A program made the position numbers and the translations under genes. DNA of 64,000 bases from Pontiellaceae bacterium B12227 (lineage in GTDB: Bacteria > Verrucomicrobiota > Kiritimatiellia > Kiritimatiellales > Pontiellaceae), in NCBI GenBank assembly GCA_029432775.1, contig JAROAZ010000001.1:558001-622000 (forward strand), in the 5' to 3' direction. The notes beneath the pieces were generated by a model. That model saw only the letters and a program-made list of their open reading frames with translations, ran no database searches and had not been told where the DNA came from. Position 1 is the stretch's first letter; every line of letters starts with the position of its first letter. Shown one piece after another: positions 1,912-58,914 of this stretch.

Positions 1912-4185
1912 ATGAAACTCGCGACCCTGTTTCTGTCTTTTTTTGCCGTCGGCTCCCTCTGCGCCGCACCAACGATTGAAAACGATTATATGCGGATTGA
2001 ACTTAACGGTGAGAATCTGCATCTCTATTCCAAAGGGCCTGCTGCCGGTAAAATGACGGCCACTATTGATCTGCCGGGCCTTACAGGAACGGCCAAGGAG
2101 GCCGAACATACCGACGCACTCTGGGGGAACGGCACCCGCCTGACCATCAACCACGGCGAAAGCTTAACCACGCTCACCCTGTTCGAAGACAATCCATTCA
2201 TGCAGCTGGAAACCCATTTGGCCAATCGGGCAGAAAATATGCGTGATTTAAAAAAAGTGATTATCGCAAAGATGTCCATGGAAATTGAGGGCGTGAACAG
2301 CAACGACTTGAACACGCTCGGCAGTGGCGGACTTCGATCTGCCGACAGCCCCAAGGGCAGCTATGCCTACAGTGTGCTGGCCGACCCGAAATCGCGCAAC
2401 GGCGTGTTTTGCGGGTGGCTGACCCAATTGCGCGGGGTTGGGCTCATGCTCCCCTCCTACAAGGACGGCGTCCACCGACTTGAAACCCAGCTAGACTTCG
2501 GCCTGATGCGTCTGAACCCCGGCCAAACCCGTGCGACCGACACCCTGCTTATCGGCTTCTTCGACGATGCGCGGCGCGGCCTCGAACAGTATGCCGACGA
2601 CATTACCAAGGTCTACGACATCAACCTTCCCCCCAAGCCGAACGTCTACTGCACCTGGTACCATCGCAAACAGACCGGATCCGGGGCCTCGACAGAAAAA
2701 ATGCTCGCCGAAAACGGCGCGTTTGCCAAAGAACACCTTAAGCCCTTCGGCCTGGACGTCCTCCAAATCGACGACAATTGGCAGGCGCTCGAAAACGATC
2801 CGGGCAAACAAAACAAGGGCCCCAACAAAACCTTCATCTCAACCACCAAACATTACCCGAGCGGAATGGCCCGCACCGCCCAAACCATCCGCGAAGAAGG
2901 CTTCACGCCCGGCATCTGGTTCATGCCCTTCGCCGGCGACACCAACAACCCCACCTTCAACCCGTCCATTTTCGCCACCGACAAAACCACCGGCCTCCCC
3001 TTTGAGGAAAAACGCTGGTCCGGCGCCACTATCGACGCCTCCAACCCCCGAGGCGAAGCCTTCCTGCGCGAACGCTTCAAACGCATCCACGACTGGGGTT
3101 ACCGCTATATCAAAGTCGACGGCCTGCACGTCGGAACCCCCAGCCCGAACCTATACGTCAACCGCTCCTACGACGGCAAGGTGTTCGCCGATGCCGAGAT
3201 CCACGATAAAAGCCTGACTTTCATCGAAGCCTATCGCAAAGGGCTCACCATGTTACGCGAAGGGTTCCCGGACACCTTCATCCTTGGCTGCGCTGCCACC
3301 CAGAACTATCTTTCGCTTGCGCCGGTCTTCGGACTTGTCGATGCCATGCGCGTCGGCCCCGACAACGGCGGCGCAGTCAAAGGCAACTGGGCCCAGACCA
3401 CCGCCGGTGCCGACTATGCCGGCAACCTCTGGTTCCTCAACAACCGCGTCTGGTACAACGACCCCGACCCCATCTACGTGCGCAAAACAGTTCCACTGAA
3501 CAACGCGCGCTGGATGGCCTCATGGCTGGCCGTCAGTGGCTCCATGAACACCACCAGCGTACAGTATGGCCTGCTCGCCCCGGAACGGCTCGACATTATC
3601 AAACGCACCCTGCCCGCGCACAACTTCGATGCCCGCCCGGTCGATATTCTCGAAAACAGCAAACCGCAGATCTGGAAAGCCGAAAACGACCGCGTCGTTA
3701 TTCTCGGATTGTTTAACTGGGACGAAGAAAAAGAAACTGACATCAACTATCCACTCGAACGAATGGGCCTTGACTCGAAGACGGGATATGAAGCATTCGA
3801 TTTCTGGGACAACCGCTACCTCGGCACGATCAAGGGCGATCTAAACACCACACTGGAAGGCGCCCACTGCCAGGTGCTCGCCCTGCGCGAAGCCAAAGAC
3901 CACCCGCAACTGCTCAGCACCTCCCGCCACATCACCCAAGGGCTTATCGATGTGGTTTCCGAAGATTGGAACCCGAATAAACGCGAGTTGCGCGGCACCT
4001 GCAAGGTCGTCGCCAACGATCCCTACGAACTTCGCATCGTCTGCCCGCAAGGTTTCCAGGCACTGGAAATAAAAACCGACGACCACAATGCCACCATATC
4101 AACCATTGAGCAGGCCGACGGCCTTGCACGCATCTCTATCACTCCCTCCATCACAGGAACGATGAACTGGAGCGTCACATTCTAA
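1912..4185 (+). CDS. Secreted GH36-like alpha-galactosidase family enzyme
   Basis: A 757-residue exported glycosidase, with GGAG 8 bases before the ATG and a signal peptide ending near LCA. An N-terminal beta-sandwich (about 20-220) is followed by a (beta/alpha)8 barrel with clan GH-D features: YCTWYHR near 243, LQIDDNW near 283, YIKVDG with the candidate nucleophile Asp403, and RVGPDNGG with the candidate acid/base Asp484. A C-terminal beta domain follows. Family members release alpha-galactose or related alpha-linked sugars; the exact sugar here is not certain. It is the only enzyme gene on the plus strand, divergent from the sulfatase pair, with a candidate operator at 1865-1880. A perfect copy of the interspersed palindrome (4054-4068) is read in frame as FQALE near the C terminus. 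Confidence 0.85.
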   Translation: MKLATLFLSFFAVGSLCAAPTIENDYMRIELNGENLHLYSKGPAAGKMTATIDLPGLTGTAKEAEHTDALWGNGTRLTINHGESLTTLTLFEDNPFMQLETHLANRAENMRDLKKVIIAKMSMEIEGVNSNDLNTLGSGGLRSADSPKGSYAYSVLADPKSRNGVFCGWLTQLRGVGLMLPSYKDGVHRLETQLDFGLMRLNPGQTRATDTLLIGFFDDARRGLEQYADDITKVYDINLPPKPNVYCTWYHRKQTGSGASTEKMLAENGAFAKEHLKPFGLDVLQIDDNWQALENDPGKQNKGPNKTFISTTKHYPSGMARTAQTIREEGFTPGIWFMPFAGDTNNPTFNPSIFATDKTTGLPFEEKRWSGATIDASNPRGEAFLRERFKRIHDWGYRYIKVDGLHVGTPSPNLYVNRSYDGKVFADAEIHDKSLTFIEAYRKGLTMLREGFPDTFILGCAATQNYLSLAPVFGLVDAMRVGPDNGGAVKGNWAQTTAGADYAGNLWFLNNRVWYNDPDPIYVRKTVPLNNARWMASWLAVSGSMNTTSVQYGLLAPERLDIIKRTLPAHNFDARPVDILENSKPQIWKAENDRVVILGLFNWDEEKETDINYPLERMGLDSKTGYEAFDFWDNRYLGTIKGDLNTTLEGAHCQVLALREAKDHPQLLSTSRHITQGLIDVVSEDWNPNKRELRGTCKVVANDPYELRIVCPQGFQALEIKTDDHNATISTIEQADGLARISITPSITGTMNWSVTF
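4054..4068. repeat. Interspersed palindrome, exact (TTCCAGGCACTGGAA)
   Basis: Exact match with perfectly complementary arms. Encodes FQALE in the plus-strand GH36-like gene, so the motif is not restricted to minus-strand genes. Confidence 0.85.
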
Positions 4186-10675: not shown

Positions 10676-13231
10676 TTATTTAATATGGATGGTCTTGCGT
10701 ACCCGGATGTCTGAAGACGAGGCGCCGACCTGCAGCTCGTACCCGCCGCTGTTGACGGTAAATCCGTCATTCCATTCGTCCCACCACCCCAGCGTTTCAA
10801 TCTCCAGCGGAAGCTCAACCGTGACGGACTTGCCGGCCGGAATATGGATCCGTTTAAAGCCCTTGAGCTGACGCTTCGGCTGATAAACCGCTGAGTCCAG
10901 GTTGGAGACATAGAGCTGCACCACTTCATCGCCATCGCGTTTCCCGACATTGGAAACCTCAACGGAAACCATCAATGTTTCATCCTTCGCGCACTCGGAT
11001 TTCGAGACCGCCACTTCGCCATACTCGAACGGGGAATAGCTCAGGCCGTGACCGAAGGGATAGACTACATTGTTGGTGGCAAACTGATAGGTGCGTCCCT
11101 TGTTGATCTCGTAGTTTTCGAAATCGGGCAGTTTCGTCACATCCGCATAAAAGCTGAGCGGCAGACGGCCGGACGGGTTGGCCACGCCCCCGATCAAATC
11201 GGCCAGCGCATAGCCGCCCTGCTGCCCGGGGAACCATTCCATCATGATGGCCGGCACCAGTTCGTCGAGTTCGCCCAGTTGCGGCGCGGTGCCTCCGGTG
11301 AGCACCACCAATAAATTCGGATAGATTTCAGCCAGTTCACGAATTTCCGTCATCTGTTCTTTCGGAATTTCCAGGCTTTGGAAATCGCGCGATTCGGTGC
11401 CCATGCTATGGGTCATCCCTCCGACATACACCATCAGCTCGCGTTGCGGGTTGCCGGGCTTTTGTTCCTCAAGCGGTTCGATCCATTTGAGACAGACACT
11501 GCTCTGATCGGACAGCTGCCGGTCATAATATTCCACTCGTAGCTCCACCGGCTTTCCGGCCGTCAGCTCCACCGGCTCGCTCAGCTGTTCGTGCTCGGCA
11601 TAGTAACTCCAGATATCGAGAATCTTTTTCCCGTCAATATATACCCGTGCGCCATCATGGGCTTCGATGGCAAAGACGTGGGTACCGCTTCGATTCGGCG
11701 TCAACACACCGGTCCAGCGAACCGAGAAAACCGGCTGGGGCACATCGGGGTCGACGTTTTCAAGCGGCCGCGCCCACGTAAAATTCGGAGCTTCATCGAT
11801 CCGTTGCGCCTTAACGCCGCCATCCAGTTTGTTGTCTTTAAAGTACTCCGCGTTCAACCCGGGGGTCGACGGATCGCCGGGCACATGGAGACTACGCCCG
11901 GGCACCGGTTGCAATGAACCCCCGAAAAGGGTCTGCACCTTATAGTCCCCGCCCAGCACCTCCGGCAGCCCGACCGCCGCGGAAACGGCAGTGTGCGTCG
12001 GCGTGCCGCTGTACCCCCCCAACGGAGCACTGTTCATATACGGGCCGCCAATGAGGATGCGATCATATTTTTCCGGTGTGGCGGGCAGCACGTTGTTTTC
12101 ATTTTTCAACAGCACAATCCCTTCGCGCGCAATCTGACGAGCAATACCGACATGCTTTTCGCAGCCGATCACATCCTCGCTGATCTTGTTATACGGATTA
12201 TCCTCATCAGAACGCAGCAGGCCCAGCTTGATGCGGGTGGCCAGGTTTTGCGCAATCGATTCGTCGAGCTCCTGTTGCGTCAACAGACCGGCCTTCACGG
12301 CCTCCAGCGCCCAGCCTCCATTGCTTCCACTCTGGATATGCACGCCGGCCTTGATCATGCCCGCCGATGCTTCAACCCCGTTCTTTGTGAAGTGGTGTTT
12401 TTGGGTGAGATGGCCCGGACAGCCGACATCGGTCACGACCGTGCCGCTGAAGCTCCATTCGTCGCGCAGCAGATCGGTCAGTAACCAGCGGTTGACGGTA
12501 CAGGGCGTTCCGTTGATCCCGTTGTAGGCGGTCATGATCGACTCCACCTTGCCCTCTTCAACTCCCGCTCTGAACGCCGGAAGATAATACTCGCGCAAGG
12601 CGCGCTCGGAAATCGACGGCCGCGCACTGTACCGGTTATGCTCGGTGTTGTTAGCCACAAAGTGCTTGAGTGTTGAAACGGTCTTCAGCCATTCCGGGTT
12701 GTCGCCCTGCAAACCGGTCACAAAAGAAACGGCCAGTTTGGAAGCCAGCAACGGATCTTCGCCGTAGGTTTCCTCGGTGCGGCCCCAGCGCGGATCGCGC
12801 GCCATATTCACGGTCGGGCTCCATATGGTCAGGCCGCGATAGCGCTTCGCCGCGGTTTCCGGATCAGCGGCATGATGCATCGCACGGGCTTCGTCGCCAA
12901 TGGCCACCGCCATTTCGTGGACCAATCCCGGGTTCCAGGTGGAGGCCATGCAGAGCGGAATGGGATAGGACGTCGCCTTGCCGGCGCGCGCCACGCCATG
13001 CAACGCTTCGTTCCACCAGTGGTGCCGCGGAATCCCGAGCCGTTCCACGGGCTTGCTGCCCATATCGATCAGGCCCGCCTTCTCTTCCGGTGTCATTTCC
13101 GCAACCACGGCCCGCGCCTGCTCCAATGCTTTCTGGTTCAGCTCCGAACGGTCCGGTGCCGCTACAGACTGCGACGCCTGCAACATCATGACAACTGTCA
13201 GTAATCCAAATTTAATACCCTTGTTCACCAT
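10676..13231 (-). CDS. Secreted GH3 beta-glycosidase with inserted PA14 domain
   Basis: An 851-residue GH3 enzyme. The ATG at 13231 is preferred to the one at 13243 because GGGAGA lies just upstream of it and it gives a clean signal peptide (MVNKGIKFGLLTVVMM). The N-terminal barrel contains FVANNTEHNRYSARP and the candidate nucleophile Asp268 in VVTDVGCPG. The second alpha/beta domain is interrupted by PA14 (about 460-585). A fibronectin-III-like end follows. This layout is common among beta-xylosidases, arabinosidases and beta-glucosidases. It carries palindrome copies at 11369-11383 and, with one mismatch, 10941-10955. Confidence 0.9.
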   Translation of the reverse strand: MVNKGIKFGLLTVVMMLQASQSVAAPDRSELNQKALEQARAVVAEMTPEEKAGLIDMGSKPVERLGIPRHHWWNEALHGVARAGKATSYPIPLCMASTWNPGLVHEMAVAIGDEARAMHHAADPETAAKRYRGLTIWSPTVNMARDPRWGRTEETYGEDPLLASKLAVSFVTGLQGDNPEWLKTVSTLKHFVANNTEHNRYSARPSISERALREYYLPAFRAGVEEGKVESIMTAYNGINGTPCTVNRWLLTDLLRDEWSFSGTVVTDVGCPGHLTQKHHFTKNGVEASAGMIKAGVHIQSGSNGGWALEAVKAGLLTQQELDESIAQNLATRIKLGLLRSDEDNPYNKISEDVIGCEKHVGIARQIAREGIVLLKNENNVLPATPEKYDRILIGGPYMNSAPLGGYSGTPTHTAVSAAVGLPEVLGGDYKVQTLFGGSLQPVPGRSLHVPGDPSTPGLNAEYFKDNKLDGGVKAQRIDEAPNFTWARPLENVDPDVPQPVFSVRWTGVLTPNRSGTHVFAIEAHDGARVYIDGKKILDIWSYYAEHEQLSEPVELTAGKPVELRVEYYDRQLSDQSSVCLKWIEPLEEQKPGNPQRELMVYVGGMTHSMGTESRDFQSLEIPKEQMTEIRELAEIYPNLLVVLTGGTAPQLGELDELVPAIMMEWFPGQQGGYALADLIGGVANPSGRLPLSFYADVTKLPDFENYEINKGRTYQFATNNVVYPFGHGLSYSPFEYGEVAVSKSECAKDETLMVSVEVSNVGKRDGDEVVQLYVSNLDSAVYQPKRQLKGFKRIHIPAGKSVTVELPLEIETLGWWDEWNDGFTVNSGGYELQVGASSSDIRVRKTIHIK
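10941..10955. repeat. Interspersed palindrome, degenerate (TTCCCGACATTGGAA)
   Basis: One mismatch to the consensus. The minus strand reads SNVGK, one base from the SNxWK form. Confidence 0.5.
11369..11383. repeat. Interspersed palindrome, exact (TTCCAGGCTTTGGAA)
   Basis: Exact match, encoding FQSLE in the GH3-PA14 gene. Confidence 0.8.
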
Positions 13232-13274
13232 CCTATCTCCCATTTAATTCAATCTGTGCAACGGTTAATTTTCT

Positions 13275-13297
13275 GACCTTCCAGGCATTGGAAGGTC
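13275..13297. repeat. Interspersed palindrome, exact, with extended 9-bp arms, between genes
   Basis: The core TTCCAGGCATTGGAA (13279-13293) is extended to arms GACCTTCCA and TGGAAGGTC around GGCAT. It lies in the 72-base gap between the GH43-like gene and the GH3-PA14 gene. In RNA it would form a stable hairpin but no U run follows, so it is not a classic terminator. Confidence 0.8.
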
Positions 13298-14529: not shown

Positions 14530-17500
14530 CTACTGGCAAGGGGATAGATATTCGCCTTCAATCGGCACGGGCAGGGCTGGCGAATCCTTCAGTTTCCAGG
14601 CATAGGAAAGGTGTTGATCGGGGCTCTGCATGTTGATGCGCGCCACCGCCTTGAGATAATACTTTTCGCCCGCTTCCAGATAGACCGGTTTAGACGACTG
14701 CCGCCACTGATAAAAATAATAGCCCTGCGGATTCCAGCTATAGACGCCGCATATCGACCGCATATTCTCCGGCGACTCATCCGTGCTCAGGGATAGCTCC
14801 GCTTGATTATGCGTAGAGACGTAAAATACATAATCTCCACTCACCGACGGATGCAGGTAGCCCTCGAAAAGCAGACCCACGTCGGCATGGTTTCCCTGGG
14901 TCAACTCAGCAAACCCATCGGTATCAAGTGCGGTGGCCTCCATTTCAAGATCCGGCTGTGCGGGAACCTTTTCCAAGGCCTGGAACTTTCCAAGGTCTGT
15001 TCCGTCCAGTCCTTCGGTCCAGGCCGAAACATGGAGTGAACCGGTACCGGTGCCGGCTTTCATACCGTTTACCACCACCGTTTCCATGGCGGCACCCCAG
15101 TGCCCGTTTTCATCGTAGGCGCGAACCGTTACGGCATGAAGATCCTGCTCGGTAAAGCAATGTGTAATCTCGCGCGTCGTGTAGTCAGTGGTTCCATCGC
15201 GATTCACATCCCACGCATAGCTGACGTGTCCTGACCCAGCCGCCGTCAGGGTCACCGGCTCGCCGATGGCGACACCGCTTTTGCGATCGGCCACAATTTC
15301 AACGGTCGGCGCGCTGCGTTTTCCCGGTTCGTCCAGCCCCTGTTCGAGCAGTTTCTGTCGCAGCATCGTCCATTCGCCTCCGCCATGCAGCCCGCATTCA
15401 GCGGCCGTGGCATCCTCGGCAAAGATATCATATAGCTCCGGCAGAAAGGCGGCGGTCCAAAGCATAGGATAGGATAAATGGCCGGGCTTAATACCACCGC
15501 GTCCATTGAGATTACCCGCCACCAGTTTTTTACCCTCAGCATTGCGCCCCAGATACATTCGGTAGCGGAAATTGTACGCCAACTCAAACGCTCGCGCATC
15601 CGTCATCACATCGGGATAGCGGCCGGAATAATAGGCCGTAGCGAATGGGGTGAAATCCAGAAAACTATAACCGGTCATTTCAGAGGCACTGCCCCAGCCC
15701 ACATCGGTGCAGGCATACGGAAAGTCCAGCACGGGAACCAGCTTGCCGTTCTTGCGCAGATACGAACGTTTATAACCGGCGGCGGGATCGAGGATGAAGT
15801 CCACATAGGCCGCAGCAATCTTGTGATAGAGCGCGGCGCGCTCCGGGTTATCAAGCTCGCGATGCGTATCCTGCATGCGGTCATAGATTTCCTCCAGCGT
15901 GATGCACACATCGATGAAGGCGGCATAGCGGTTCCAGGGCATCGTGATGCGGGCGGTTTCGGGATCGACATACTGCTGAATAGAATCATCCACGGTTTTT
16001 TCGGCTTCGCGAATAAAGAACAAGGCCTTTTCCAGCTGGGTCATACCCGGTGTATTGCTCGGCTTGTTCCAAACATTGGAATGGGCGGTTACATAGTCGG
16101 CATAGAAAACCATTGGAATCAGCGGCGAGCCGTTAAGCAGCTCACTGGCAGCTGGCTGGCCATTGAAATAGTATCGGTTCAGCCACCCCGGCCAACCGGG
16201 CCGTTCGGAATCCGGCTTAAAGTCGGAATTGATTGCATTCCTTGGAATCAACGGATGTCGACAGTGCTTGCCGCCGTTACGATGTTCAAGAATGCTATCG
16301 GCCCATCGTTCGAGAATCCCACGCAACTCATCGTCCTGGCTCAGCATCAGGGTAAAATAGATCCCGCGCGCCCCCTGCTCGGCACCGAAGATAATCTTGT
16401 TATTGTTGTTGGAGGTCGGCAGCGGGAAGTTGCGGGCATAAGCCTTAAAGTCCTGTAGTTCCTTTTCAGTCATGGCACCGTATTGCCGCTCCAGCCTCAG
16501 CACGGGCAGCTCCTTGCCCTGTTTTTCCAATGCATTCTTCCGCAAACGGTCCAGATTCCAGTCGTAAAGCGTTTCGCTCAACGTTTCTTCCTGATAGGGA
16601 TCTGCCACCGGCAATCTGGCGAGACCTCCTACCGGTTTTCCCACCTGCGCGGCGACTGCTGTTAGCGGTTCCTTTCCTAGCGATTTCAGAATCAGACCTA
16701 ATGGAAGAACCGTTGATGTTCCTTCCGGCAGCAGCGTTTCGCCATACACATCGTGCCGCTGCCCGAAAACAAACCATGTGATTGTGTCGCCCGTGCTGCT
16801 GCGGACCAGCATAAGGGTTATCTTAACGGGCGCCTTGCCCATCGCACGTTTGATGCGATGCTGTTTCCCGTCCGGGGTCGAAAGCACCGTATGTCCTTTG
16901 ATGGAAAAAATATATTCCCCTACCTTCAGGCCGAAGGTTTCATTGTTTTCTTTGGGCGTAATCTCGAAGGCATTGCGTTCAAACTCAACCGCAATGCCCT
17001 GACCCGGAGCCAATGTTGGAAGCGCGTTCACAGTTGCCGCATGCCCCTTAATGAGTTCGCGTAATTCCGGATGATGGTAAAGTTCAACGGTCGGAGATTG
17101 CTTGAGGGGGGTCACGTTTCCAGATGCCAGATTAATGCGATAGGCCGGAGCCGACGGCTCGGCGGCCAGCACGCCTAGATCCGCCTCGTACATCGTGCGC
17201 CATCGCGGGGACTTTAGCAGGAGCGTCACCCCTTTGAGTTTTTTTGCATCCGTTGTTCGAATAACGACATCGGTCGCCTTTGGATTCATGAGCAACCGGA
17301 ACGAAACCGCTTTATCTTTTGTGTCGAGTGCCGTGGCCGGATCCCCATCAAACAATGAAGGATCGCCATCGACAAATCCTGCAGGCGAACGCAGGTTGAG
17401 TGGTATCGGCCGCTCTCCATCATAAAGCAGGATATCCTGCAACACACCTTTTGGGAAACCCCTGGGCGCACTGAGAGCTCCATAATATACCCGGTCCGGC

Positions 17501-17625: not shown

Positions 17626-17678
17626 AATCCTTTTTTTATTTACTTTGATTACGATGCAATGGCCCCAGGATGGACACA

Positions 17679-18857
17679 CTATTCTTTAAGATCGCCGAAA
17701 CAGAGCGTATTCCAGTAATCGTTGTAGTATCCGGGGTTTTCGATGCGGGTCTGATCGATTACTTTTCTGGTGTATGGCATAGGCATTTTTTTACGATCAT
17801 GATAGTGGTGATAGACCAGTTCGTAGAGTGGCCGGAACCGGCCGCGATACTTATCGGATGGTGCCATAGCCTTGTCATGCGCATTGCCGTCCCCGACCGG
17901 CGAGGGATAAACTTCGAACGGCACATGGTCATCGCCCAGATTGTAGCGCGCCAGATACTCGACACATGTACCGATCGACACATCTTCGTAATCATAAAGA
18001 TCGATACCCTGGTTCCATGCGATCTCGCAGGCGCGGGCGAGAAAGTCCAGCCCCATCTGGGCATGGTCCTGGTCGCGGCCGGTTTCCTGGCACTGCCCGC
18101 TGGGCAGCAGATAGTTCGTCAACCGTGCGTTGCTATCACCGCTCTTCAACCACTCGATGTTTTCATCGAACAATTCGCGGTCATCCAGGAATACGGCAAT
18201 CGCCATCGTGCTCCAGGTGACCGACGCATCCCAGTTGCCGTTGTAAGTATTCGGCCGCGGTTCCATAGCCGGCAGAATCACATCGCGCAACCACTGCTCA
18301 AACTGAATTTGCTCCTCCTTGGGCCATGGAGCCCCGGAATAACGCAGTAGCTCGGCGGCCTGTGCCCAGTAGCCACTATGGATCCCCATGATCAGACGCG
18401 TGTGCAGATGCTCGTCGTCCGGTTTGGACCGGATGGATGTCAGGGTTGACGACCAATGGTTCATTACTCTGATCGCCTTCTTCGCATCGGACGCCTTTCC
18501 CGTCACGATCCACTGCAGCGCATAGCTGTTCACAATGGCCGCGGCAGTTTTGAAATGAAGGTTGTCCGGGCCGAGTATTTCGGTCGGTGCTTTCCACGGG
18601 TCGCCGCCCCACCCAGTCTTCCCTCGCGGATGCCTGAGCATGTCTTTCCAGGCATTGGAACGCAACTCATGACCCTGTTCCAAATCCAGTTTCATAGCAT
18701 CGAGCATGGCCTTGGATTGAAGAATGCCTGGGTGGCGCAAGCCCGACGAGGGCGAAACTGTTTCCCGCACCTTTACGGGAACCGTTGTGGTACAGGACGA
18801 AGTCAGGGCCACCAAGACCAATGTGAGGACGGCATACGAACATCCGTTTTTTTTCAT
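17679..18857 (-). CDS. Alginate-lyase-fold lipoprotein (PF05426-like; PL5/PL38 type)
   Basis: A 392-residue protein starting at the ATG at 18857, one base after the stop of the HAD gene, so translation is probably coupled. The N terminus is a lipoprotein signal ending LTSSC. The alpha/alpha-toroid pattern of the alginate-lyase superfamily is visible: LHFKTAAAIVNSYALQW, YNGNWDASVTWS and GQCQETGRDQDHAQMGLDF, the last two holding the Asn, His and Gln/Arg residues typical of the active cleft. Such enzymes cut uronate-containing chains by beta-elimination. PL38 is my closest guess, but the subfamily is not proven. A palindrome copy (18646-18660) is read as SNAWK. Confidence 0.8.
   Translation of the reverse strand: MKKNGCSYAVLTLVLVALTSSCTTTVPVKVRETVSPSSGLRHPGILQSKAMLDAMKLDLEQGHELRSNAWKDMLRHPRGKTGWGGDPWKAPTEILGPDNLHFKTAAAIVNSYALQWIVTGKASDAKKAIRVMNHWSSTLTSIRSKPDDEHLHTRLIMGIHSGYWAQAAELLRYSGAPWPKEEQIQFEQWLRDVILPAMEPRPNTYNGNWDASVTWSTMAIAVFLDDRELFDENIEWLKSGDSNARLTNYLLPSGQCQETGRDQDHAQMGLDFLARACEIAWNQGIDLYDYEDVSIGTCVEYLARYNLGDDHVPFEVYPSPVGDGNAHDKAMAPSDKYRGRFRPLYELVYHHYHDRKKMPMPYTRKVIDQTRIENPGYYNDYWNTLCFGDLKE
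18646..18660. repeat. Interspersed palindrome, exact (TTCCAGGCATTGGAA)
   Basis: Exact match, encoding SNAWK in the alginate-lyase-fold gene. Confidence 0.85.
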
Positions 18858-18858
18858 A

Positions 18859-19743
18859 TCAGTTCCAGTGCGGGTGTTCCGGCAGAGCGGCATCAAATTC
18901 TTCGATCAGCATCTGCTGATACTCGCCGCCAAAGGTGCCGGCGAAGAATTTATCAAGACCCTCTTCGAACAGGCGCTTCCATGAGGCTTCCTCATTGCCG
19001 GGAACAATCGGGTAAAAGAACGCATTGTTATCCATGGCGGCCTTATAGTCGCCGGGGGCGTCGCCCACCTTGAGGATCTTATCGGCGTCATAGCCCTTGC
19101 CCGTGGTGGCATAGTGAATATGCTCGGACTTGGTGCCGTGCTCCTGTCCGGCGATCAGATTGACGTAGGGCGTCATACCGTTTTCCTCCCACTCGCGCTC
19201 AAGCGCTTCGAGCGGGGTTTGGGAAACCACAATCATGTCGGCCTTTTCATTGCCTGCTTTGAGCACATCCATCACATGCGGGAACGGCGCCACGCCGGAA
19301 ACTATATCAGCGACACGGGCATTGACTTCCAGGCTCCAGTCAAGCATACGCTGGAGTTCTTCGTTGCCGGAATTTTCGACTTCGATTTGCAGCGCTGGAT
19401 TGCCCAGTTTGGTTTCGCGTTTGATCCAGGCATCAAGTTCCTTGAGTTCCAAGGGTTGGAAACCGCGCGCCTGAACATCCTTGCGCTCCTTGAGCAAGTC
19501 GCGGAAATGCTGGATGGCGAAGAAGCGATTGCAGCCGCGAGTCTTGCTGTAGAGGTTGACGAAGTCCCAGACTTCGCGGGCCGCCTTACTGACGGGCTGG
19601 CACTGCATGTGTTTGATCACCGCGGGGCAGAAACATTCCTTGTGCTTGAGTTCCATGGTATCGAACACGCAGCCATCGCTATCGAATCCAATAAAGTATT
19701 CGTTTTCTTTCGGGAGCGCCTTGAGTTGGGCAACATAGTCCAT
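18859..19743 (-). CDS. Cytoplasmic HAD-superfamily hydrolase
   Basis: A 294-residue soluble protein with no signal peptide. HAD motif I is FDSDGCVFD (residues about 20-28), motif II is VVSQT, and motif IV is VGDAPGDYKAA; a helical cap of about 120 residues lies between motifs I and II. These proteins are mostly phosphatases or phosphomutases on sugar phosphates. It lies within the operon between the alginate-lyase-fold gene and a sulfatase, so it may process an imported sugar product after phosphorylation. This is inferred from context only. A perfect palindrome (19447-19461) encodes FQPLE. Confidence 0.85.
   Translation of the reverse strand: MDYVAQLKALPKENEYFIGFDSDGCVFDTMELKHKECFCPAVIKHMQCQPVSKAAREVWDFVNLYSKTRGCNRFFAIQHFRDLLKERKDVQARGFQPLELKELDAWIKRETKLGNPALQIEVENSGNEELQRMLDWSLEVNARVADIVSGVAPFPHVMDVLKAGNEKADMIVVSQTPLEALEREWEENGMTPYVNLIAGQEHGTKSEHIHYATTGKGYDADKILKVGDAPGDYKAAMDNNAFFYPIVPGNEEASWKRLFEEGLDKFFAGTFGGEYQQMLIEEFDAALPEHPHWN
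19447..19461. repeat. Interspersed palindrome, exact (TTCCAAGGGTTGGAA)
   Basis: Perfect arms; encodes FQPLE in the HAD protein. Confidence 0.85.
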
Positions 19744-22726: not shown

Positions 22727-22731
22727 TGGAA
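22717..22731. repeat. Interspersed palindrome, exact, overlapping a start codon
   Basis: TTCCAGGCATTGGAA contains the complement of the ATG (22724-22726) of the CAPSR sulfatase; in the gene it reads FPMPGK across the start. Confidence 0.85.
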
Positions 22732-40048: not shown

Positions 40049-40063
40049 TTCCAGCCTCTGGAA
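40049..40063. repeat. Interspersed palindrome, exact, in a leader region
   Basis: TTCCAGCCTCTGGAA has complementary arms even at the variable inner base (G paired with C). It lies between the operator candidate at 40071 and the ribosome binding site of the giant gene, outside coding sequence. Confidence 0.85.
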
Positions 40064-40086: not shown

Positions 40087-40276
40087 TTCAGGCTTTAGAG
40101 CCTCTTGCAAAACTCTTCGGGGGTGCCGAGGCGGTTATTCGTTAAAAAGTTATTGGTTATTAGGCCAACAAACTCAACTGCAGATGTATGCAGCGGCTAT
40201 CCCTGATAACAAATAACAGATAATTGCCTCTTAAACCCAAAGGGTTTTTCAAGATGCTCTCTCTTTAGCGCAAACG

Positions 40277-43188: not shown

Positions 43189-45252
43189 ATGACCGCTTGG
43201 TTTATCTTGCTCAGCATGAATACCGATATGGAACAACACTTTCTGAAGCGTAAGAAAATCCTCGGTGCACTGCAGGATACGCCACTCGCGACGGAGGGCG
43301 ACGAAGCCTTGACACCCATCCTGAATGCGCTAATGACCCCCGAAATGCGCTACGACGCCCCGGAACTGTTGGCGGAAGGCGGGGAAAAACGTATTTTCCG
43401 GGCCTTCGACCACCACCTAAACCGGCACGTCGCCATGGCCCAGGCAGCCCATGCCGAGACCCCTGAAGACCAGGAACGTTTTTTGCGCGAAGGCCAGCTG
43501 ACCGCCAACTTGACCCACCCCAACATTGTGCCGATCCACAACATGGGAATCGCAAGCGACGGCGCACCGTTCTTCTCCATGGAACTGGTGCCCGGCGACA
43601 GCCTGAGGGACATTATTGAAAAACTAAAGGCGGGCGACCCCGTATATAAAACCCGATATACCCTCAAGGATCTGCTGGATATTTTCAACAAGGTGTGTGA
43701 TGCCCTGGCCTATGCCCATTCGCGCAATGTCCTGCATTTGGACATCAAGCCGGACAATATCCGCGTCGGGCAGTTTGGTGAAGTACTCTTGTGCGATTGG
43801 GGTCTGGCGCGGATCGAGGGCCACATCGATTCCGGAGAAGCGGAACGGGGCCAGCTCGACAGCGATCTCCTTAACGACATGACGCTTACCGGCACCATGA
43901 AGGGCACCCCGGGGTTTATGGCACCGGAACAGGTGATGAATCAGGAAAAATCAAGACAGACGGACATCTATGCCCTTGGGGCCATTCTGTACCTTATCTT
44001 AACCCACCAACTGCCTGTTGATGGAAAAACGGTTAGCGAAGTGGTGGAAAATACGCGAAAGGGAAACGTCATCCATCCCCGCAAATGCAACCTACTTCAT
44101 CCGGTTCCGGTCGGGTTGGCCGCCGTAGCCATGCAGGCCCTTGCTTTCGAGCCGGATAAACGCTATGCAAGCGTGAAGAATCTCCAGTCCGATATAAACC
44201 GCTTTCTAACCGGTTTCCCCACCACAGCGGAGCAGGCCGGCCTCTTCCACCGAATGGCTTTGCTGACCCAGCGTCATCGCAATCTGACGATGTGGTTAAT
44301 GACCTTTTTCATCCTTCTGATCCTCGTGATGAGCATCAGCCTATCCATTATTCATCGGGGCAAACAGCTTGCGGAAGAAAACTTCGTCCTCTACAAGACC
44401 CAACAGGAACAGGCCAACCGGATCAATGAAAAGCTGTCTGCCCTCTCTTTCAGCACCAAGAACGTGCTCAGCTATGTCAGCGCAAGAAGCATGATTCAAG
44501 TCGCCGAACAACTCCTTGAACATAACACGCTCACCCCGGACCGCAAGCAGGACATCCAGGTACATAAAGCGCGTATGCACATGGTGCTCCAGGAGTTCAA
44601 TGCCGCGACATCCACCTTCCAGTCCATGGAAGATCCGGAAGAGAATTCGCCGGGCATGCTTGACGTCTGCCGGAAATTCGCAGCGATCAAGCCGGACGAT
44701 ACCATGTTGCTGTCTGATCAGGATCTGGCTCGGTTCCTGACGACCCACTATAAAATACTCCCGCGCTCTCTGGCGCTGTATACCTATTACCACGACCGCC
44801 AGAGAAACCGGTCTTCGAATCCAGAAGACCACATCGCTGTGGCCGGAGCCATGCTGGCTCGGTTGAACCAGATTAACTCATCAAAAATACCCGAATTAAA
44901 ACTCAGCAAAGGCCCTGAAGGCTATCACCTGAACCTGACCCATACACCCTATAGTGTCTACATCGTAGGCATTCCATTGGTCTATGGGAAAAATGTCCTC
45001 CAGCCACTGAACCTTTATTCGCTCGATATCAGCCACACCCCCATATCGCTTGTTCGGGAATTATGGGAGCTGAAGGTGAAGAAGCTCCGCATGGTGGGCG
45101 TGATTCTCGAACCCACGGAGGGCATGGCCGGAATGCTGAAACATATGGGAGCCGAACAGGTGATTCTCGGGAAAGGCGACTATTCAGAAGGAACAGTCAA
45201 CTATATCCGCAAACAGGGTATTGAGGTGATTGAAGAAGGGTATGAACTCTGA
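43189..45252 (+). CDS. Membrane Ser/Thr protein kinase with extracytoplasmic sensor-like region
   Basis: A protein of up to 687 residues; no clear ribosome binding site is seen, and starts at 43189, 43216 or 43228 are possible. Residues about 55-340 are a Hanks-type kinase: HLDIKPDN with catalytic Asp185, LCDWGLA with Asp203 (DWG in place of DFG) and GFMAPEQ. The usual beta-3 lysine is absent: the VAIK position reads VAMA (Ala84). A lysine occurs in the glycine-rich loop (Lys67 in GGEKRIF), as in WNK kinases. One membrane helix (about 364-386) is followed by a coiled region and a C-terminal leucine-rich-like part. Convergent with the ECF sigma gene, it may control envelope or polysaccharide responses. 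Confidence 0.88.
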   Translation: MTAWFILLSMNTDMEQHFLKRKKILGALQDTPLATEGDEALTPILNALMTPEMRYDAPELLAEGGEKRIFRAFDHHLNRHVAMAQAAHAETPEDQERFLREGQLTANLTHPNIVPIHNMGIASDGAPFFSMELVPGDSLRDIIEKLKAGDPVYKTRYTLKDLLDIFNKVCDALAYAHSRNVLHLDIKPDNIRVGQFGEVLLCDWGLARIEGHIDSGEAERGQLDSDLLNDMTLTGTMKGTPGFMAPEQVMNQEKSRQTDIYALGAILYLILTHQLPVDGKTVSEVVENTRKGNVIHPRKCNLLHPVPVGLAAVAMQALAFEPDKRYASVKNLQSDINRFLTGFPTTAEQAGLFHRMALLTQRHRNLTMWLMTFFILLILVMSISLSIIHRGKQLAEENFVLYKTQQEQANRINEKLSALSFSTKNVLSYVSARSMIQVAEQLLEHNTLTPDRKQDIQVHKARMHMVLQEFNAATSTFQSMEDPEENSPGMLDVCRKFAAIKPDDTMLLSDQDLARFLTTHYKILPRSLALYTYYHDRQRNRSSNPEDHIAVAGAMLARLNQINSSKIPELKLSKGPEGYHLNLTHTPYSVYIVGIPLVYGKNVLQPLNLYSLDISHTPISLVRELWELKVKKLRMVGVILEPTEGMAGMLKHMGAEQVILGKGDYSEGTVNYIRKQGIEVIEEGYEL
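44617..44631. repeat. Interspersed palindrome, degenerate (TTCCAGTCCATGGAA)
   Basis: One mismatch to the consensus; encodes FQSME in the kinase. Confidence 0.6.
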
Positions 45253-46284: not shown

Positions 46285-46476
46285 TTATTTCAATACGATG
46301 CCGTACGTTTCACCCTTCGTGGAAGAAAACGTAATCCTGTTTTCTGCCGGGCTTGTGGTTTTGACACCTTTTCCATTGCTGTCGATGACTGAGACCAACC
46401 CGACCGCAGGATAGTTAATACGGCATGAGCCACTGGCAGACCAGTTTTCCAAAGGTTGGAAACAGGTCAAGAGCAA
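46285..46476 (-). pseudogene. Remnant of a GH95 C terminus
   Basis: From about 46440 to the stop at 46285 the minus strand encodes GSCRINYPAVGLVSVIDSNG, then VKTTSP and ITFSSTKGETYGIVLK. This aligns with the last 45 residues of the intact GH95 gene (ECRLAYPGIEAARVKDSNG, VKTT, INFSSTKGETYTVAF). The rest of the enzyme is missing. The similarity begins 7 bases from a perfect interspersed palindrome (46447-46461). No ribosome binding site is seen for the 63-codon frame. It is most likely the leftover of a deleted second GH95 copy. Confidence 0.75.
46447..46461. repeat. Interspersed palindrome, exact (TTCCAAAGGTTGGAA)
   Basis: Perfect arms at the broken edge of the GH95 remnant; same 15-mer as 36846-36860. 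Confidence 0.85.
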
Positions 46477-50681: not shown

Positions 50682-52172
50682 TCACTTCCCCCGTCGTTTT
50701 AATTGCGCTTCGTACAGGTCAGGCGGTGACACGTTGCCGCCAAGCGGTTCCACATGCCACTCGTCCTGGTTGCTCTTCACGACACCTTTAATGCCGATCA
50801 TGTTGAGTTGCGGAAAATGTCCTTTTTTCGGGGCTGCAGGTGTATCGCCATTGTGTCGAATATTCCAGGCGGTGGAACGCGCGGCGGAATGCGGCCCGCG
50901 GTGCCCGGAACCGCTGGAGTCCCACAACCGGTCGGGATTGCCGACATCGATATCGGTCAGGAGGTTTTCGAAAGGAGCATTGCGGTGATGGTCGAAGTTA
51001 AGGCGCACGCCCTTGCCGCGGCGCATCACGTTTCCGTGCGCCATTCCCTCATAAGTAATGTCGTGCACATATTCCGTTTCGATATGGAAGTCAGAAACAA
51101 GGCACCCCTGTGTGACGCCTGAAAGCCAGATGGCGTGATGCCCGGTCGAGCCGTCTTCAAGCTTCCGCTTCTCAGCACGAATGAGCACGCGTTCAATCTG
51201 GCAGAAGCGCGAGCGGTTATCGAGCTTAATGCCCATGTCAGCATCGATTATTTCAATGCGCCGTGCCCAGCAGTTGACGGCCGCCGTCATTTGAATGGCG
51301 TTGAACCCCTCTTCGAGCAGATGCGGTTCCTTGGGCCTGCCCGCCATTTCGATGGTAAAGTTTTCCAGCCCGACCTCCTCGATGCTCGGTTCAAAATTTC
51401 CAACCGTTGGATTCCATTCCGGGCGTACATCCAGCCGTAACGGCCGATCCAGTTTTATACTCTTTTTATCCACCGACTTCACCTGCGCCACGGTGGAACA
51501 AACAAAGCCCAAGGTGCCCTCGCCCGCATCGCAACAGCCGGCATGCACGTGGCGGCCCAGCTCTTCATTCATCTTCATATTGAGCTGAATCCATGAACCG
51601 CGGTCTATGCCCTTGGTGCTTTTGAGCTGCAGCCGAGTATCCCCGCGCCTGGCCGGTTCCACCACCGCCACACCACGTTCCTTCGGGCGCGTTCCTTCGA
51701 TCGACAGAAATGCACCGCCAAAGGAATAGGCCAGCTTGGTTCCTCCATCCGCATTGCTCTCCAGCGGATTGAGCTCTTGCAACGAACAAGGAACATACAG
51801 AATGGTTTTGCGCGGCCCCGCCCCGCGTAGCACAACGTTTGACTTTTTGATCGTGATCGGCTTGTCCAGAATAAAACGCCCGGCCGGAATCAGCACCGCC
51901 CCGCTATCCATTTTGTCGATGGCCGCCTGAATGGCGTCGGAATCGCCGATATCATCATTCGCTTTGGCACCATAGTCCAACACGCTGCAAACCGCCTTCA
52001 CATCAGGGATCGGCTTGTCGCCGCAATGGTAACCGGCATAGCCGAAGAAAGGCAGCCGACTATCAGACTTCCAGAGCTCCCCGCGCCGCCCCCACAGCTT
52101 GGAAGGAGAACCCGCCATGCAGACCGATGGCAGAATCAAAGCCCCTAGTAAGAGTACCCGAACGTATCTCAT
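50682..52172 (-). CDS. Secreted pectate-lyase-3-like beta-helix protein
   Basis: A 496-residue exported protein. The ATG at 52172 has AGG six bases upstream; a second ATG at 52178 is possible. The stop of the upstream GH43-like gene is seven bases away. After the signal peptide, LWGRRGELWKSDSRLPFFG and the helix start VLDYGAKANDDIGDSDAIQAAID align with the giant protein at 35482-40020. NVVLRGAGPRKTILYVP and VNCWARRIEIIDADMG show the coils. The activity is probably a lyase or hydrolase on a uronate or fucose polymer; catalytic residues could not be assigned. It holds palindrome copies at 50863 and 51398. Confidence 0.8.
   Translation of the reverse strand: MRYVRVLLLGALILPSVCMAGSPSKLWGRRGELWKSDSRLPFFGYAGYHCGDKPIPDVKAVCSVLDYGAKANDDIGDSDAIQAAIDKMDSGAVLIPAGRFILDKPITIKKSNVVLRGAGPRKTILYVPCSLQELNPLESNADGGTKLAYSFGGAFLSIEGTRPKERGVAVVEPARRGDTRLQLKSTKGIDRGSWIQLNMKMNEELGRHVHAGCCDAGEGTLGFVCSTVAQVKSVDKKSIKLDRPLRLDVRPEWNPTVGNFEPSIEEVGLENFTIEMAGRPKEPHLLEEGFNAIQMTAAVNCWARRIEIIDADMGIKLDNRSRFCQIERVLIRAEKRKLEDGSTGHHAIWLSGVTQGCLVSDFHIETEYVHDITYEGMAHGNVMRRGKGVRLNFDHHRNAPFENLLTDIDVGNPDRLWDSSGSGHRGPHSAARSTAWNIRHNGDTPAAPKKGHFPQLNMIGIKGVVKSNQDEWHVEPLGGNVSPPDLYEAQLKRRGK
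50863..50877. repeat. Interspersed palindrome, degenerate (TTCCAGGCGGTGGAA)
   Basis: One mismatch to the consensus; the minus strand reads STAWN. Confidence 0.6.
51398..51412. repeat. Interspersed palindrome, degenerate (TTCCAACCGTTGGAT)
   Basis: One mismatch; the minus strand reads NPTVGN. Confidence 0.65.
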
Positions 52173-52179
52173 CAGCATC

Positions 52180-53214
52180 CTAATAATTATTGACCGGGAA
52201 AACGAGAATGCGCGATCCCTCTTTGTTTTTCGGTGGCAGGCAGGCGGCCAGCACCGCAATGACTTCCCCCTTTTCATTGAGCACCACGTTGGGGCGTTCG
52301 ATACGGGAAAATTTAAATTCGCTGCCGTCATCGAAACGGATCGGGTGCATCATTGAAAAAAGCGGATCCTTCGAAACCAGCTCATAATTCAGCCCATCTG
52401 CCGAAGTATAGTACGTAAAACCACGTCTGAGCCCGGTGGCATACCCATGCAGGTCGGTGACCATCACATGATAGCGGCTGCCGTCGTACCAAATACACGG
52501 ATCTTCGTTTTCAAAGTTTTCCGGCAGTGCATTTTCGCCCTTCGCATGCAGCCGAGTGTAAGGGCCGAAAATGGAATCAGCCTTGATCGCCTGCAGATAA
52601 TGAAACTGGTGGTTAAACTCCTTGCTGCCGCTTTCATATTTTGGATTCGGCACCTTCACCTTGCCGACACCATAGACCGAGCCGTCTTCGTGGATCCACA
52701 TGGCCGGGTTGTTCGCGGGGATGCACCAGTCATCGCGCCGCTCCCACGGCCCCTCGACCGAATCGCTGACGGCCACCCCGCTCTTCCACGCCGGAATGCC
52801 GAGGTGGTAAAGATAATATTTACCGTCGTGGAACGTGACCTTCGGATTATGCACCCCCTGACTGTCAAAAAAGTTTCCAGGCCTTGGAAGCAACACATCC
52901 TCCACATAGGTGTAAGGTCCCAGCAGGTTTTTAGACGAGGCACGTACCGCATAGCTCTGCTTCCATTTCTGGAAATCGTCGTTCGGCCAGCAGGAGGCGA
53001 ACAGGTGGTACGTATCGCCCACCTTAACAATGGACGGATCCCACAGATGGAACCCCTCGCGTACAAAGCCGCCACCTTTCTTCGGCAGCCCCATTTTTTG
53101 CAGCAGCGGATTATCCGTCGGCCCTTCCGAATAGGGTTTAAAGGGTTCGGTTCCGGAGCTCTGCAAAGCCCATGCTGCGAATATCGTTCCACATATCATT
53201 TTAAAATATCTCAT
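52180..53214 (-). CDS. Secreted GH43-like beta-propeller enzyme
   Basis: A 344-residue exported protein starting at the ATG at 53214, which lies one base after the stop of the GH92 gene and is preceded by GGAG. The propeller motifs are HLWDPSIVKVGDTYHLFASCW, GVHNPKVTFHDGKYYLYHLG, NNPAMWIHEDGSVYG and NEDPCIWYDGSRYHVMVTD. The first Asp and the Glu of NEDP fit a GH43-type active centre. Arabinose, xylose or galactose release is possible; the family number is uncertain. A perfect-spacing palindrome lies at 52875 and a spacing variant at 52971. Confidence 0.75.
   Translation of the reverse strand: MRYFKMICGTIFAAWALQSSGTEPFKPYSEGPTDNPLLQKMGLPKKGGGFVREGFHLWDPSIVKVGDTYHLFASCWPNDDFQKWKQSYAVRASSKNLLGPYTYVEDVLLPRPGNFFDSQGVHNPKVTFHDGKYYLYHLGIPAWKSGVAVSDSVEGPWERRDDWCIPANNPAMWIHEDGSVYGVGKVKVPNPKYESGSKEFNHQFHYLQAIKADSIFGPYTRLHAKGENALPENFENEDPCIWYDGSRYHVMVTDLHGYATGLRRGFTYYTSADGLNYELVSKDPLFSMMHPIRFDDGSEFKFSRIERPNVVLNEKGEVIAVLAACLPPKNKEGSRILVFPVNNY
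52875..52889. repeat. Interspersed palindrome, exact (TTCCAGGCCTTGGAA)
   Basis: Exact match, encoding LPRPGN in the GH43-like gene. Confidence 0.8.
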
Positions 53215-53215
53215 A

Positions 53216-57057: not shown

Positions 57058-58914
57058 CTATTTAACCGGTTTTAAAATGAGAGCCTGGGGGCGGAAGCGT
57101 TCCACACCGTCGGTGTCGGTGATGCGCCAGACCAGTTTATTGCTGCCGACAACCACCTTAAAGGTGCCCAGCGGTTGCTTGACGTCCGCACCAGCGCTTG
57201 TTTTTCCGCCAACCGAAGCGTTACCCAACTCAACCTTAATGCCGGCGCCTTCCTTTAAACCGTGATAGCAGGCGATCACTTCATATTCCCCTGCCTCGCG
57301 AACATACAGATTCCAGTTGACGGTATCAGAGCCTTTCGTCCAGCCCTTCAGGCAGTCGCGGTGATTATCAGCCTTATAGCCGCGCGCACCGTTTTCATAC
57401 TTCAACGTCGATCCATCAATCTTGCCGTCGAACACATTCAGCGTGTTCAATGCAACAGGGTCTAGCAGGCGCGCTTTCGAGGTCTGGATATCGGCTTCAA
57501 ACTCCAGCGCGATCACCGTGGAGGCCTCGGACACCGGCGAGGCCGGAACGTTGAGTTCCAACGTGTTGTCATCGAGCCGCTTTGCAGCTACCCCGACTTC
57601 GTCTGCACCAAGAAGGTGAATGAATGCAGGATCGTTCTGTAGTCCGCCGATGCGCAGTTTTCCATCGATCGGCCAATCAAAGACCTGCAGATAAACCATG
57701 TGATCTTTGGCGGTGGACTCGCCCCACGCCTGTACCGGGAGTCCGGACCTGCCGGCACCATGGATCGACTCGGAAGCCATCGTCATCCACTCGGCAAAGC
57801 CGTTCAGGATATTCACATCCGGGTCGTCGATTTTCCCGTCTGCGCGCGGGCCGAGGTTCATCAGGATATTACCTCCGCGGGCCACGGCCTTAATTAACAA
57901 TTGGATCAGTTCGGCGGCGGGCTTGTGGCTCTTGTCTTCGCTGTGATAGCCGTACGACTCGTTGGTGGTCGGGATGGCTTCCCAGTACTTTTCAGAAGTC
58001 GGCTTGATCTGCGCCGGCTTGTCACACGTTGTTGTGTAGTCGCCGAAGCCATAGATGAAACGACCGTTGACCACCACTTCTGAATCGGTATCGCGCAGCG
58101 CCTTAAAGATGCGCCAGTTCTCGGAATTGGGCAGCTTGTGCGGGGTGTCGAACCACATAATATCGGGATCATATTTCTTAAGCAGCTCCACCACTTGCGG
58201 GATTGATTTTTTATTCACATAATTTTCGCGGATACGCGGCAGTTCTTTACCCATGACCGGATCATCCCACCAGTTGCGGCCGCCCAGGTTTTTGTCGCCA
58301 CCGGGATTCTTGAATTCCCAATCGTTGCCGGGGCCGTCGGCCTCGCCCCAATCAAAGGCGTGCGAGTAGTAGAATCCAAACTTGATGCCGTGTTTAACGC
58401 AGGCCGCCTTGAGTTCCGCCATCGGATCGCGCTTGAACGGGGTGGCATCCACAATGTTCCAGTCCGACACCTGCGAATCGTACATCGCGAAACCGTCATG
58501 GTGCTTAGCGGTAATGACCAGGTAGCGCATGCCCGCAGCCTTGATCAGCTTAACCCATTCTTCCGCATCAAAATCAACGGGATTAAATTTATCCGCGCAA
58601 ACCTCCGCATATGTTGCCTGATCGATCTGACCCTTACGCTGAATGTGTTCTGAATAGCCGTGCACCTTTTCGTCCTGCCACACGCCGCCGAGCTGGGCAT
58701 AGATACCCCAGTGGATGAAGCAGCCGAAGCGGCCGTCGACCCACCACTGGATGCGCTCGTCGCGCGTCTTCATCGACTCTTCATAAAACTTCGGAGCCTT
58801 GGCGCCCGGCGCAAACTCCGGTTCCAGATAGATGTCCCCGGCAAGGAGTGTTTCCTGATCTACCGCGCTTCCAAGCATTGGAAGCAGCAACGTTGCCATT
58901 AATAATTTTCGCAT
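57058..58914 (-). CDS. Secreted GH29 alpha-L-fucosidase with C-terminal beta module
   Basis: A 618-residue exported enzyme with AAAGGATACT before the ATG. WWVDGRFGCFIHWGIYAQ, TAKHHDGFAMYDS and the nucleophile Asp256 in DIMWFDTPHK identify GH29. The last 130 residues look like an extra beta-sandwich (NWNLYVREAGEYEVIACYHG), perhaps carbohydrate-binding. The signal peptide includes a perfect palindrome (58869-58883, LPMLGS). It is the third GH29 gene in the window and the only one in this operon, next to two sulfatases. Confidence 0.93.
   Translation of the reverse strand: MRKLLMATLLLPMLGSAVDQETLLAGDIYLEPEFAPGAKAPKFYEESMKTRDERIQWWVDGRFGCFIHWGIYAQLGGVWQDEKVHGYSEHIQRKGQIDQATYAEVCADKFNPVDFDAEEWVKLIKAAGMRYLVITAKHHDGFAMYDSQVSDWNIVDATPFKRDPMAELKAACVKHGIKFGFYYSHAFDWGEADGPGNDWEFKNPGGDKNLGGRNWWDDPVMGKELPRIRENYVNKKSIPQVVELLKKYDPDIMWFDTPHKLPNSENWRIFKALRDTDSEVVVNGRFIYGFGDYTTTCDKPAQIKPTSEKYWEAIPTTNESYGYHSEDKSHKPAAELIQLLIKAVARGGNILMNLGPRADGKIDDPDVNILNGFAEWMTMASESIHGAGRSGLPVQAWGESTAKDHMVYLQVFDWPIDGKLRIGGLQNDPAFIHLLGADEVGVAAKRLDDNTLELNVPASPVSEASTVIALEFEADIQTSKARLLDPVALNTLNVFDGKIDGSTLKYENGARGYKADNHRDCLKGWTKGSDTVNWNLYVREAGEYEVIACYHGLKEGAGIKVELGNASVGGKTSAGADVKQPLGTFKVVVGSNKLVWRITDTDGVERFRPQALILKPVK
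58869..58883. repeat. Interspersed palindrome, exact (TTCCAAGCATTGGAA)
   Basis: Perfect arms with GC extended on each side; encodes LPMLGS in a GH29 signal peptide. Confidence 0.85.

Follow-up and report, generated by a model that had tools for sequence, protein, structure and literature searches.

Short, repeated DNA words are used in bacteria in several ways. The matS/MatP, Noc and SlmA systems use short palindromes, at tens of sites, that are bound by a chromosome-organising protein, while NrdR boxes are paired palindromes three helical turns apart, each a 16-bp even palindrome occurring at few promoters. The known DNA uptake sequences (DUS) and uptake signal sequences (USS) are non-palindromic words, and they affect the host proteome. 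The passages cited here describe DUS/USS dialects that differ between lineages, including one genome with two dialects (Frye 2013, PMC3630211), and a bias of uptake words to gene termini in the Pasteurellaceae (van Passel, PMC2346458). For the highly iterated palindrome (HIP) sequences of cyanobacteria, a methyltransferase combined with a repair bias has been proposed (Elhai 2015, PMC4390886), although a passage of the same article terms the link of HIP1 to methylases a mystery, and for the archaeal Lrp family adjacent sites are described as separated by two or three turns of the helix and as sharing one face of the DNA (PMC2995911). A 64,000-nucleotide stretch of the genome of Pontiellaceae bacterium B12227 (contig JAROAZ010000001.1, positions 558,001 to 622,000; hereafter the window) carries 22 exact copies of a 15-letter palindromic DNA word, TTCCA-N5-TGGAA, with the refined form TTCCARNSNYTGGAA. 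At about even odds (a probability of roughly 0.5), TTCCARNSNYTGGAA is read here as the binding site of an abundant, homodimeric and oligomerising putative DNA-binding protein, most likely a chromosome-organising one. A search of a collection of open-access papers for four spellings of the word, for Kiritimatiellota together with palindromes, and for palindromes in two papers on Pontiella found no prior report, and broader terms led to one unrelated paper.

When spacings of 0–14 bases between the two half-sites were tried in the window, only a spacing of 5 was enriched, with two others occurring once each. Across the whole genome (6.29 Mb) the word occurred 2297 times, compared to 6 for a reversed-pattern control, and the 708,628-bp contig carrying the window held 240 copies; among all 5+5 palindromes with spacing 5 on this contig, the runner-up reached 12 and the mean of the rest was 0.89. 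A narrower pattern, TTCCAGNNNCTGGAA, with up to two mismatches allowed, had 28 matches in the window versus 2.65 ± 1.89 in 100 shuffles. The refined form has A or G at the sixth base (96%), G or C at the centre (96%) and a preceding T (53%). Single-mismatch copies numbered 210 where ~20 were expected, the mismatch falling on the outer base in 78 and on the fifth base in 81 (57 of these A to G), such that tolerance within the half-site is graded, lowest in the rigid TCC core and highest at the outer T and the A>G position.

The placement of the copies relative to genes was determined on the contig using our own codon-usage gene calls, which are uncurated (396 genes, 87.4% coding). Most copies were in genes (n = 193), with 46 intergenic and one on a gene edge, and the genic copies were distributed over all three codon frames (73/72/48). 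From the window, the sequence-only reading had claimed that the word is read in all three frames, that a shared protein motif could not explain it and that selection acts on the DNA and not on the peptide. The contig-wide frame counts, and the intergenic copies besides, bear out the first of these claims; the second agrees with a synonymous-codon shuffle within each gene, which yielded 20.9 ± 3.9 copies (by frame, 15.9/0.46/4.6) versus 193 observed, a result that places the selection on the DNA. ‘Not on the peptide’ is correct as to what selection targets; the consequences reach further, however, as the peptides themselves are altered. Compared to amino-acid shuffles, the contig encoded 74 F[QH]x[LMV]E peptides versus 4.8 (73 of the 74 carrying the palindrome), 53 of a serine-tryptophan type versus 6.4 (48 copies of the word) and 142 of a proline-glycine type versus 56 (72 copies of the word). 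Since such a shuffle is blind to domain structure, reversed-peptide controls with slightly different patterns were added, giving 8 versus 74, 5 versus 54 and 87 versus 156, respectively; for the PxxG type the reversed-peptide control (87) exceeds the shuffle figure (56). In a genome with fewer word copies, G380 (G codes denote genomes sampled in the phylum survey below), the F[QH]x[LMV]E, proline-glycine and serine-tryptophan peptides numbered 11, 58 and 16, where the rate of the window contig predicts 37, 78 and 27. The expectation that the word would draw on rare codons was correct for frame 1, which is forced to CCA, the least used of the proline codons (9.5%), and to GGA (23.6%), but not for frame 0, where the codons are common (TTC 51%, GAA 64%). 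The peptide excess and the compulsory CCA in frame 1 therefore show that many copies needed amino-acid changes. The word rewrites proteins, mostly by substitution, and few signals at the DNA level prevail so clearly over both codon choice and amino-acid sequence.

Alignments across the sites were used to explore how copies arise. Paralogue alignments spanned 63 of the 193 coding copies, of which 44 were gap-free, 10 gapped in the partner and 9 gapped in the host protein, and a comparison with 400 kb of G380 spanned six of the 193 (five gap-free, one gapped in the host protein). At one orthologous place in congeners, a copy in the window genome lies between two open reading frames (ORFs), ~1.3 kb upstream of an lrp gene (L297:274); G159 and G035 have a copy there with an altered centre and G245 and G380 are without the word at equal length, the alignments to G050 and G127 being gapped and those to G159, G035, G245, G380 and G087 ungapped. 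Insertion of a 15-bp element was rejected because the alignments across sites are mostly gap-free. The same alignments speak against a dispersed mobile repeat, as does the flank, where no conservation was found beyond ~2 bases from the word, though the arrays of G383 described below look like duplicated blocks, as a mobile repeat would. The companion possibility of an RNA or DNA hairpin (terminator or REP-like) could draw on folding, as of three copies that were folded one did clearly better than its shuffles (z −3.2) and the other two did slightly better (z −1.5 and −2.1). However, the two halves do not covary, either at positions 6/10 (141 versus 135 expected), at 7/9 (58 versus 70) or at the first three flanking bases, and therefore a hairpin is unlikely to be the selected feature; neither possibility sits well with 193 of 240 contig copies lying inside genes. 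The covariation and flank tests already largely refute a repeat or hairpin, which is considered very improbable.

Going beyond what the sequence-only reading contained, copies of the word form helically phased arrays, extend across the class and have dialects. A two-site search with 14–20 bases between sites was run on 48 genomes, 44 of them picked as word-rich, and recovered arrays in 45, versus 0 of 48 in the control. The commonest neighbour distances were 31–32 and 22 bp, and stretches from other families, picked because a listing showed sites there, had gaps (<400 bp) of 31 bp (n = 13), 32 bp (n = 6) and 62 bp (n = 1). For exact and one-mismatch copies pooled from G000 (the window genome), G081 and G380, 117 pairs within 130 bp fitted a period of 10.55 bp best (Rayleigh p ~ 8e-9, with Z = 18.6 at 10.5 bp), a strength that none of 2000 random draws reached, and exact copies alone (44 pooled pairs) gave Z = 10.0 (p ~ 5e-5), with the caveat for all of these phase statistics that pairs inside one cluster are not independent. 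The relaxed set of G081 had Z = 24.3 (32 pairs) with a phase near zero, and 7 of its 11 exact neighbour pairs <130 bp apart have both sites in called genes. Arrays were also seen in viral data, where the strict two-site pattern has matches in three IMG/VR contigs; a Mu-like phage contig (L149, IMGVR_UViG_3300035698_006241), with genes for a Mu portal, a Mu-like protease, a terminase and a C5 methylase, has its own three-site array at 31 bp (650–726).

Distances of 22 and 31–32 bp fit the spacing described for archaeal Lrp in the cited part of that source (PMC2995911), which raises the possibility that a transcription regulator, either an Lrp/AsnC protein or a member of some other family, uses the copies as the operators of a very large regulon. 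Protein families were sought in 38 chosen genomes (26 word-bearing and 12 word-poor), and all 26 of the word-bearing genomes had an Lrp/AsnC gene, as did 9 of the 12 word-poor ones (Fisher p = 0.026, which is weak as the genomes are related). The placement of the copies fits operators poorly, with those on the window contig mostly genic (193/240) and the intergenic ones indifferent to promoter orientation (0.57, 0.56 and 0.47 sites per kb in convergent, tandem and divergent regions, respectively). Further, 35 loci of 2.7–5 kb around lrp, some of them cut by contig ends, contained no array, and the recognition-helix region of Lrp, compared by eye, is alike in word-rich G000 and word-poor G050 and G087 and shows no correspondence with the dialects. 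At least four genomes (L295, L304, L317 and L318; read from frames) have the Lrp/AsnC gene ahead of an aminotransferase-like gene, which suggests a local job. As a factor Lrp/AsnC was rejected, the gene being present yet not following word or dialect, and an operator role for the word is rated as quite unlikely.

The remaining candidates fared no better. NrdR was rejected as exactly one gene occurs in 38 of 38 genomes, word or no word, and Fur (7-1-7 box) as it had no match in word-bearing G012, G065, G118, G162, G300 and G053. The beta-class N6/N4 methylases (PF01555) bear on a HIP1-like account, in which an orphan DNA methyltransferase acting on the core (e.g., CCAN5TGG) and a linked repair bias would create and maintain the copies. 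Such an account would suit thousands of palindromic copies in all frames, near-misses that are frequent at the outer base (78/210), as reported for HIP1, and lineages that change to other palindromes, as HIP genomes do in the passages cited (PMC4390886). But PF01555, the only methylase class searched, does not follow the word and was rejected, with no match in 10 of 26 word-bearing genomes (G127, G300, G032, G047, G053, G056, G230, G262, G162 and G383) and matches in word-poor G101, G209 and G107; position 5 readily accepts A>G (57/210 near-misses); and methylation leaves the helical phasing and the 31–32-bp arrays unexplained, so that a HIP1-like origin is thought distinctly improbable. No gene recurring beside arrays was convincing, the largest cluster resembling antisense ORFs. 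Beside arrays, a type I hsdM-like protein, as its sequence was read, recurred in two genomes.

The range of the word was explored in 387 genomes sampled from the phylum, 131 from the class of the window and 256 others, the class being taken as Kiritimatiellia via one named relative, Pontiella (76% identity), which a passage of its description places in the ‘Kiritimatiellae’. At least 50 copies were present in 44 of the 131 genomes and in 0 of the 256 outside, where the highest count was 30. A cultured relative, Pontiella sulfatireligans F21(T), has five copies in the 11.9 kb examined, and this makes the question open to bench test.

Other words of similar layout were found in two motif-poor groups. 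The word of G230 is TTACGTNNNACGTAA (degenerate pattern, 190 versus 0 in the control), and its 50 listed sites, all with a G/C centre, occur in arrays at 31, 32 or 62 bp except for one single site; in its congener G262 the word is mostly TTCCACNNNGTGGAA among the pairs listed. Both genomes (genus g17) contain both dialects in opposite proportions (TTCCA, 209 in G262 and 29 in G230; degenerate TTMCGW, 36 and 190), a mixture that is possibly a word switch in progress. In family f5, the degenerate pattern was enriched in 6 of 6 genomes (142–432 versus 19–36) and a stricter pattern gave 277 versus 0 and 370 versus 3; the only two copies read are TTCCGANNNTCGGAA, 31 bp apart. Some genomes that use the ordinary word also contain TTMCGN5CGKAA at roughly double the control count (80 versus 41 in G000), and no convincing dialect was found in samples of G101 (67 kb) and G050 (46 kb). 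In G017 (family f6), GACCC-N5-GGGTC palindromes lie 22 and 44 bp apart (L138:3007–3043 and L139:19283–19341; the centre of the L138 pair is not G/C), possibly another dialect or an unrelated hairpin. G061, from another class of the phylum, has 55 AAGGTN5ACCTT copies, mostly AAGGTCAGCGACCTT, and these were rejected as the same phenomenon because their near-constant sequence and frequent position close to contig ends resemble those of an ordinary repeat. The dialects offer a natural experiment for finding the putative protein.

Dialects, two of them within one genome in G262 and G230, would also be in keeping with a DNA-uptake signal, in which competent cells favour word-bearing DNA and copies build up by transformation. 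Copy numbers are similar to those of DUS genomes, the genic copies lean toward the 3′ end (15 in the first tenth of genes and 34 in the last) and the ComEC family is present in 35 of 38 genomes. The 15-mer is palindromic, however, unlike known DUS/USS, an uptake signal would not be expected to show helical phasing or tandem arrays, and G118 has no ComEC match despite 418 copies, though this is weak as that genome is 94% complete; overall, an uptake signal is regarded as unlikely.

A site for an abundant putative dimeric protein is the explanation preferred here. Helical phase, graded half-site tolerance and the independence of the two halves point to a dimer on double-stranded DNA, and where sites are separated by two, three or more turns, the dimers would stack along a single helical face. 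Copies would be gained and lost through point mutation, and what retains them would be selection or a biased process at the level of the DNA, strong enough to force rare codons and amino-acid replacements. Chromosome organisation, as by a nucleoid-associated protein, would be the job over local gene control, and is considered most likely because copies occur all along the chromosome, with no concentration at promoters and no confinement to the terminus. In 20 stretches of 20 kb from the 3.88-Mb chromosome of G081, with the terminus set by GC skew, the 77 sites were neither confined to the terminus nor clearly excluded from it, and a weak gradient is still possible. As the specificity of the protein drifted, the word of the genome would follow, which may account for other words of like layout in some lineages.

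Several observations weigh against this explanation. Phasing in the window genome is weaker than in G081 (Z = 5.3, 75 pairs) and most of its copies are single, G380 has no helical phasing (Z = 0.34, 10 pairs), the array layout in family f5 rests on a single pair, and copies in G081 are clumped (variance 8.8 for a mean of 3.85 per 20 kb). Within the genus of the window, the count climbs from 7 in a 1.2-Mb genome, by way of 20 in G050 and 1146 in G035, to 2297 in the 6.3-Mb window genome, which is odd for an essential chromosome organiser. By rough gene calls, the intergenic share in array-rich genomes is 27/50 (G065), 9/13 (G012) and 7/12 (G162), and because their copies are mostly or about half intergenic, unlike those of the window genome, the role may differ between lineages. 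The listed arrays of G383 (contigs L006 and L007 among them) have common spacers in the same order, some at contig ends, and from this identical order some of them seem to have spread as duplicated blocks. Lastly, none of NrdR, Fur, Lrp/AsnC or the beta-class methylases convinces as the factor. An extension of the same explanation to a chromosome-organising system of the whole class Kiritimatiellia, in which a fast-diverging putative dimeric protein would co-evolve with hundreds to thousands of sites and the proteome be rewritten as a by-product, is advanced only tentatively and may well not hold; if true, bacteria would have in it their equivalent of a chromatin fibre that is periodic and specified by sequence.

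Copies in the window were located by exact-match search, with frames from codon-usage gene calls and gene labels from Pfam (Table 1). All 16 coding copies listed by the sequence-only reading are exact and in the frames it gave, but the list was incomplete; the two copies in one sulfatase gene are in different frames, as noted, yet lie 281 bases apart start-to-start (266 between them) rather than 267. Our own gene calls made 18 of the 22 copies genic and four intergenic, the fourth being 52875, which is nevertheless probably coding as the ORF around it has a GH43 match just above the Pfam cut-off. The copy at 44617 has an identical copy at the matching place of a related Pontiella sulfatireligans gene (L005:6330).

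Table 1. Exact copies of TTCCA-N5-TGGAA in the window, with codon frame, encoded peptide and surrounding gene (strand as + or −).
Copy	Frame (peptide)	Gene or context	In sequence-only list
4054..4068	0 (FQALE)	gene 1912-4185 +	yes
11369..11383	0 (FQSLE)	glycoside hydrolase 3 gene 10676-13243 −	yes
13279..13293		intergenic, between 13243 and 13304	no
14971..14985	0 (FQALE)	gene 14530-17679 −	yes
16067..16081	2 (SNVWN)	gene 14530-17679 −	yes
18646..18660	2 (SNAWK)	alginate-lyase-like gene 17679-18896 −	yes
19447..19461	0 (FQPLE)	gene 18859-19743 −	yes
19988..20002	2 (SKDWK)	sulfatase gene 19765-21183 − (Pfam Sulfatase)	yes
20269..20283	0 (FQALE)	sulfatase gene 19765-21183 − (Pfam Sulfatase)	yes
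22717..22731	1 (PMPG)	sulfatase gene 21203-22768 −	yes
27695..27709	0 (FQSLE)	glycoside hydrolase 2 gene 26669-28477 −	yes
31743..31757	0 (FQSLE)	alpha-L-fucosidase gene 30699-32228 −	yes
35664..35678	1 (PITG)	gene 35482-40110 −	yes
36846..36860	1 (PTFG)	gene 35482-40110 −	yes
37127..37141	2 (SNDWK)	gene 35482-40110 −	yes
40049..40063	2 (SRGWK)	genic, near start of ORF 35482-40110 −; true start may lie downstream of copy	no
44617..44631	0 (FQSME)	protein-kinase gene 43189-45252 +	no
46447..46461		intergenic	no
50863..50877	2 (STAWN)	gene 50682-52331 −	no
52875..52889	1 (PRPG; LPRPG)	ORF 52180-53367 −, dropped by own gene caller	yes
58869..58883	1 (PMLG)	alpha-L-fucosidase gene 57058-58914 −	yes
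60604..60618		intergenic, between 60433 and 60777	no

Compared to known systems, the word is unlike matS/MatP, Noc and SlmA sites in its hundreds to thousands of copies and, in G081, its lack of terminus confinement. It shares paired palindromes at three-turn spacing with NrdR boxes but not their 16-bp even form or their restriction to few promoter sites, and NrdR itself is constant whether or not the word is present. The closest known geometry, as far as the cited part of the source describes it, is that of Lrp/AsnC sites, which are clustered semi-palindromes two or three helical turns apart, though here there are far more copies, in the window genome mostly genic, and the homologue does not track the word. 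With the DUS/USS of the Neisseriaceae and Pasteurellaceae it has in common hundreds to thousands of copies, dialects, genic copies and a gene-end bias, and differs in being palindromic and in having arrays in helical phase. HIP1 and the alternate HIPs are similar in their genome-wide palindrome excess, their replacement by other palindromes in some lineages and their near-misses at the ends, although near-misses here are not confined to the outer base, the fifth position being at least as frequent (81 versus 78 of 210); the word differs in being a longer, interrupted 15-mer from another phylum, phased, in 31–32-bp tandem arrays and not following beta-class methylases. It thus belongs to the ‘highly iterated DNA word’ kind, with a putative binding protein as the preferred mechanism, and forms its own variant within that kind because neither HIP nor uptake dialects, as described in the passages cited above, predict helical phasing. 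A physical clue to its purpose comes from neighbouring copies, which tend to be turned toward one side of the helix.

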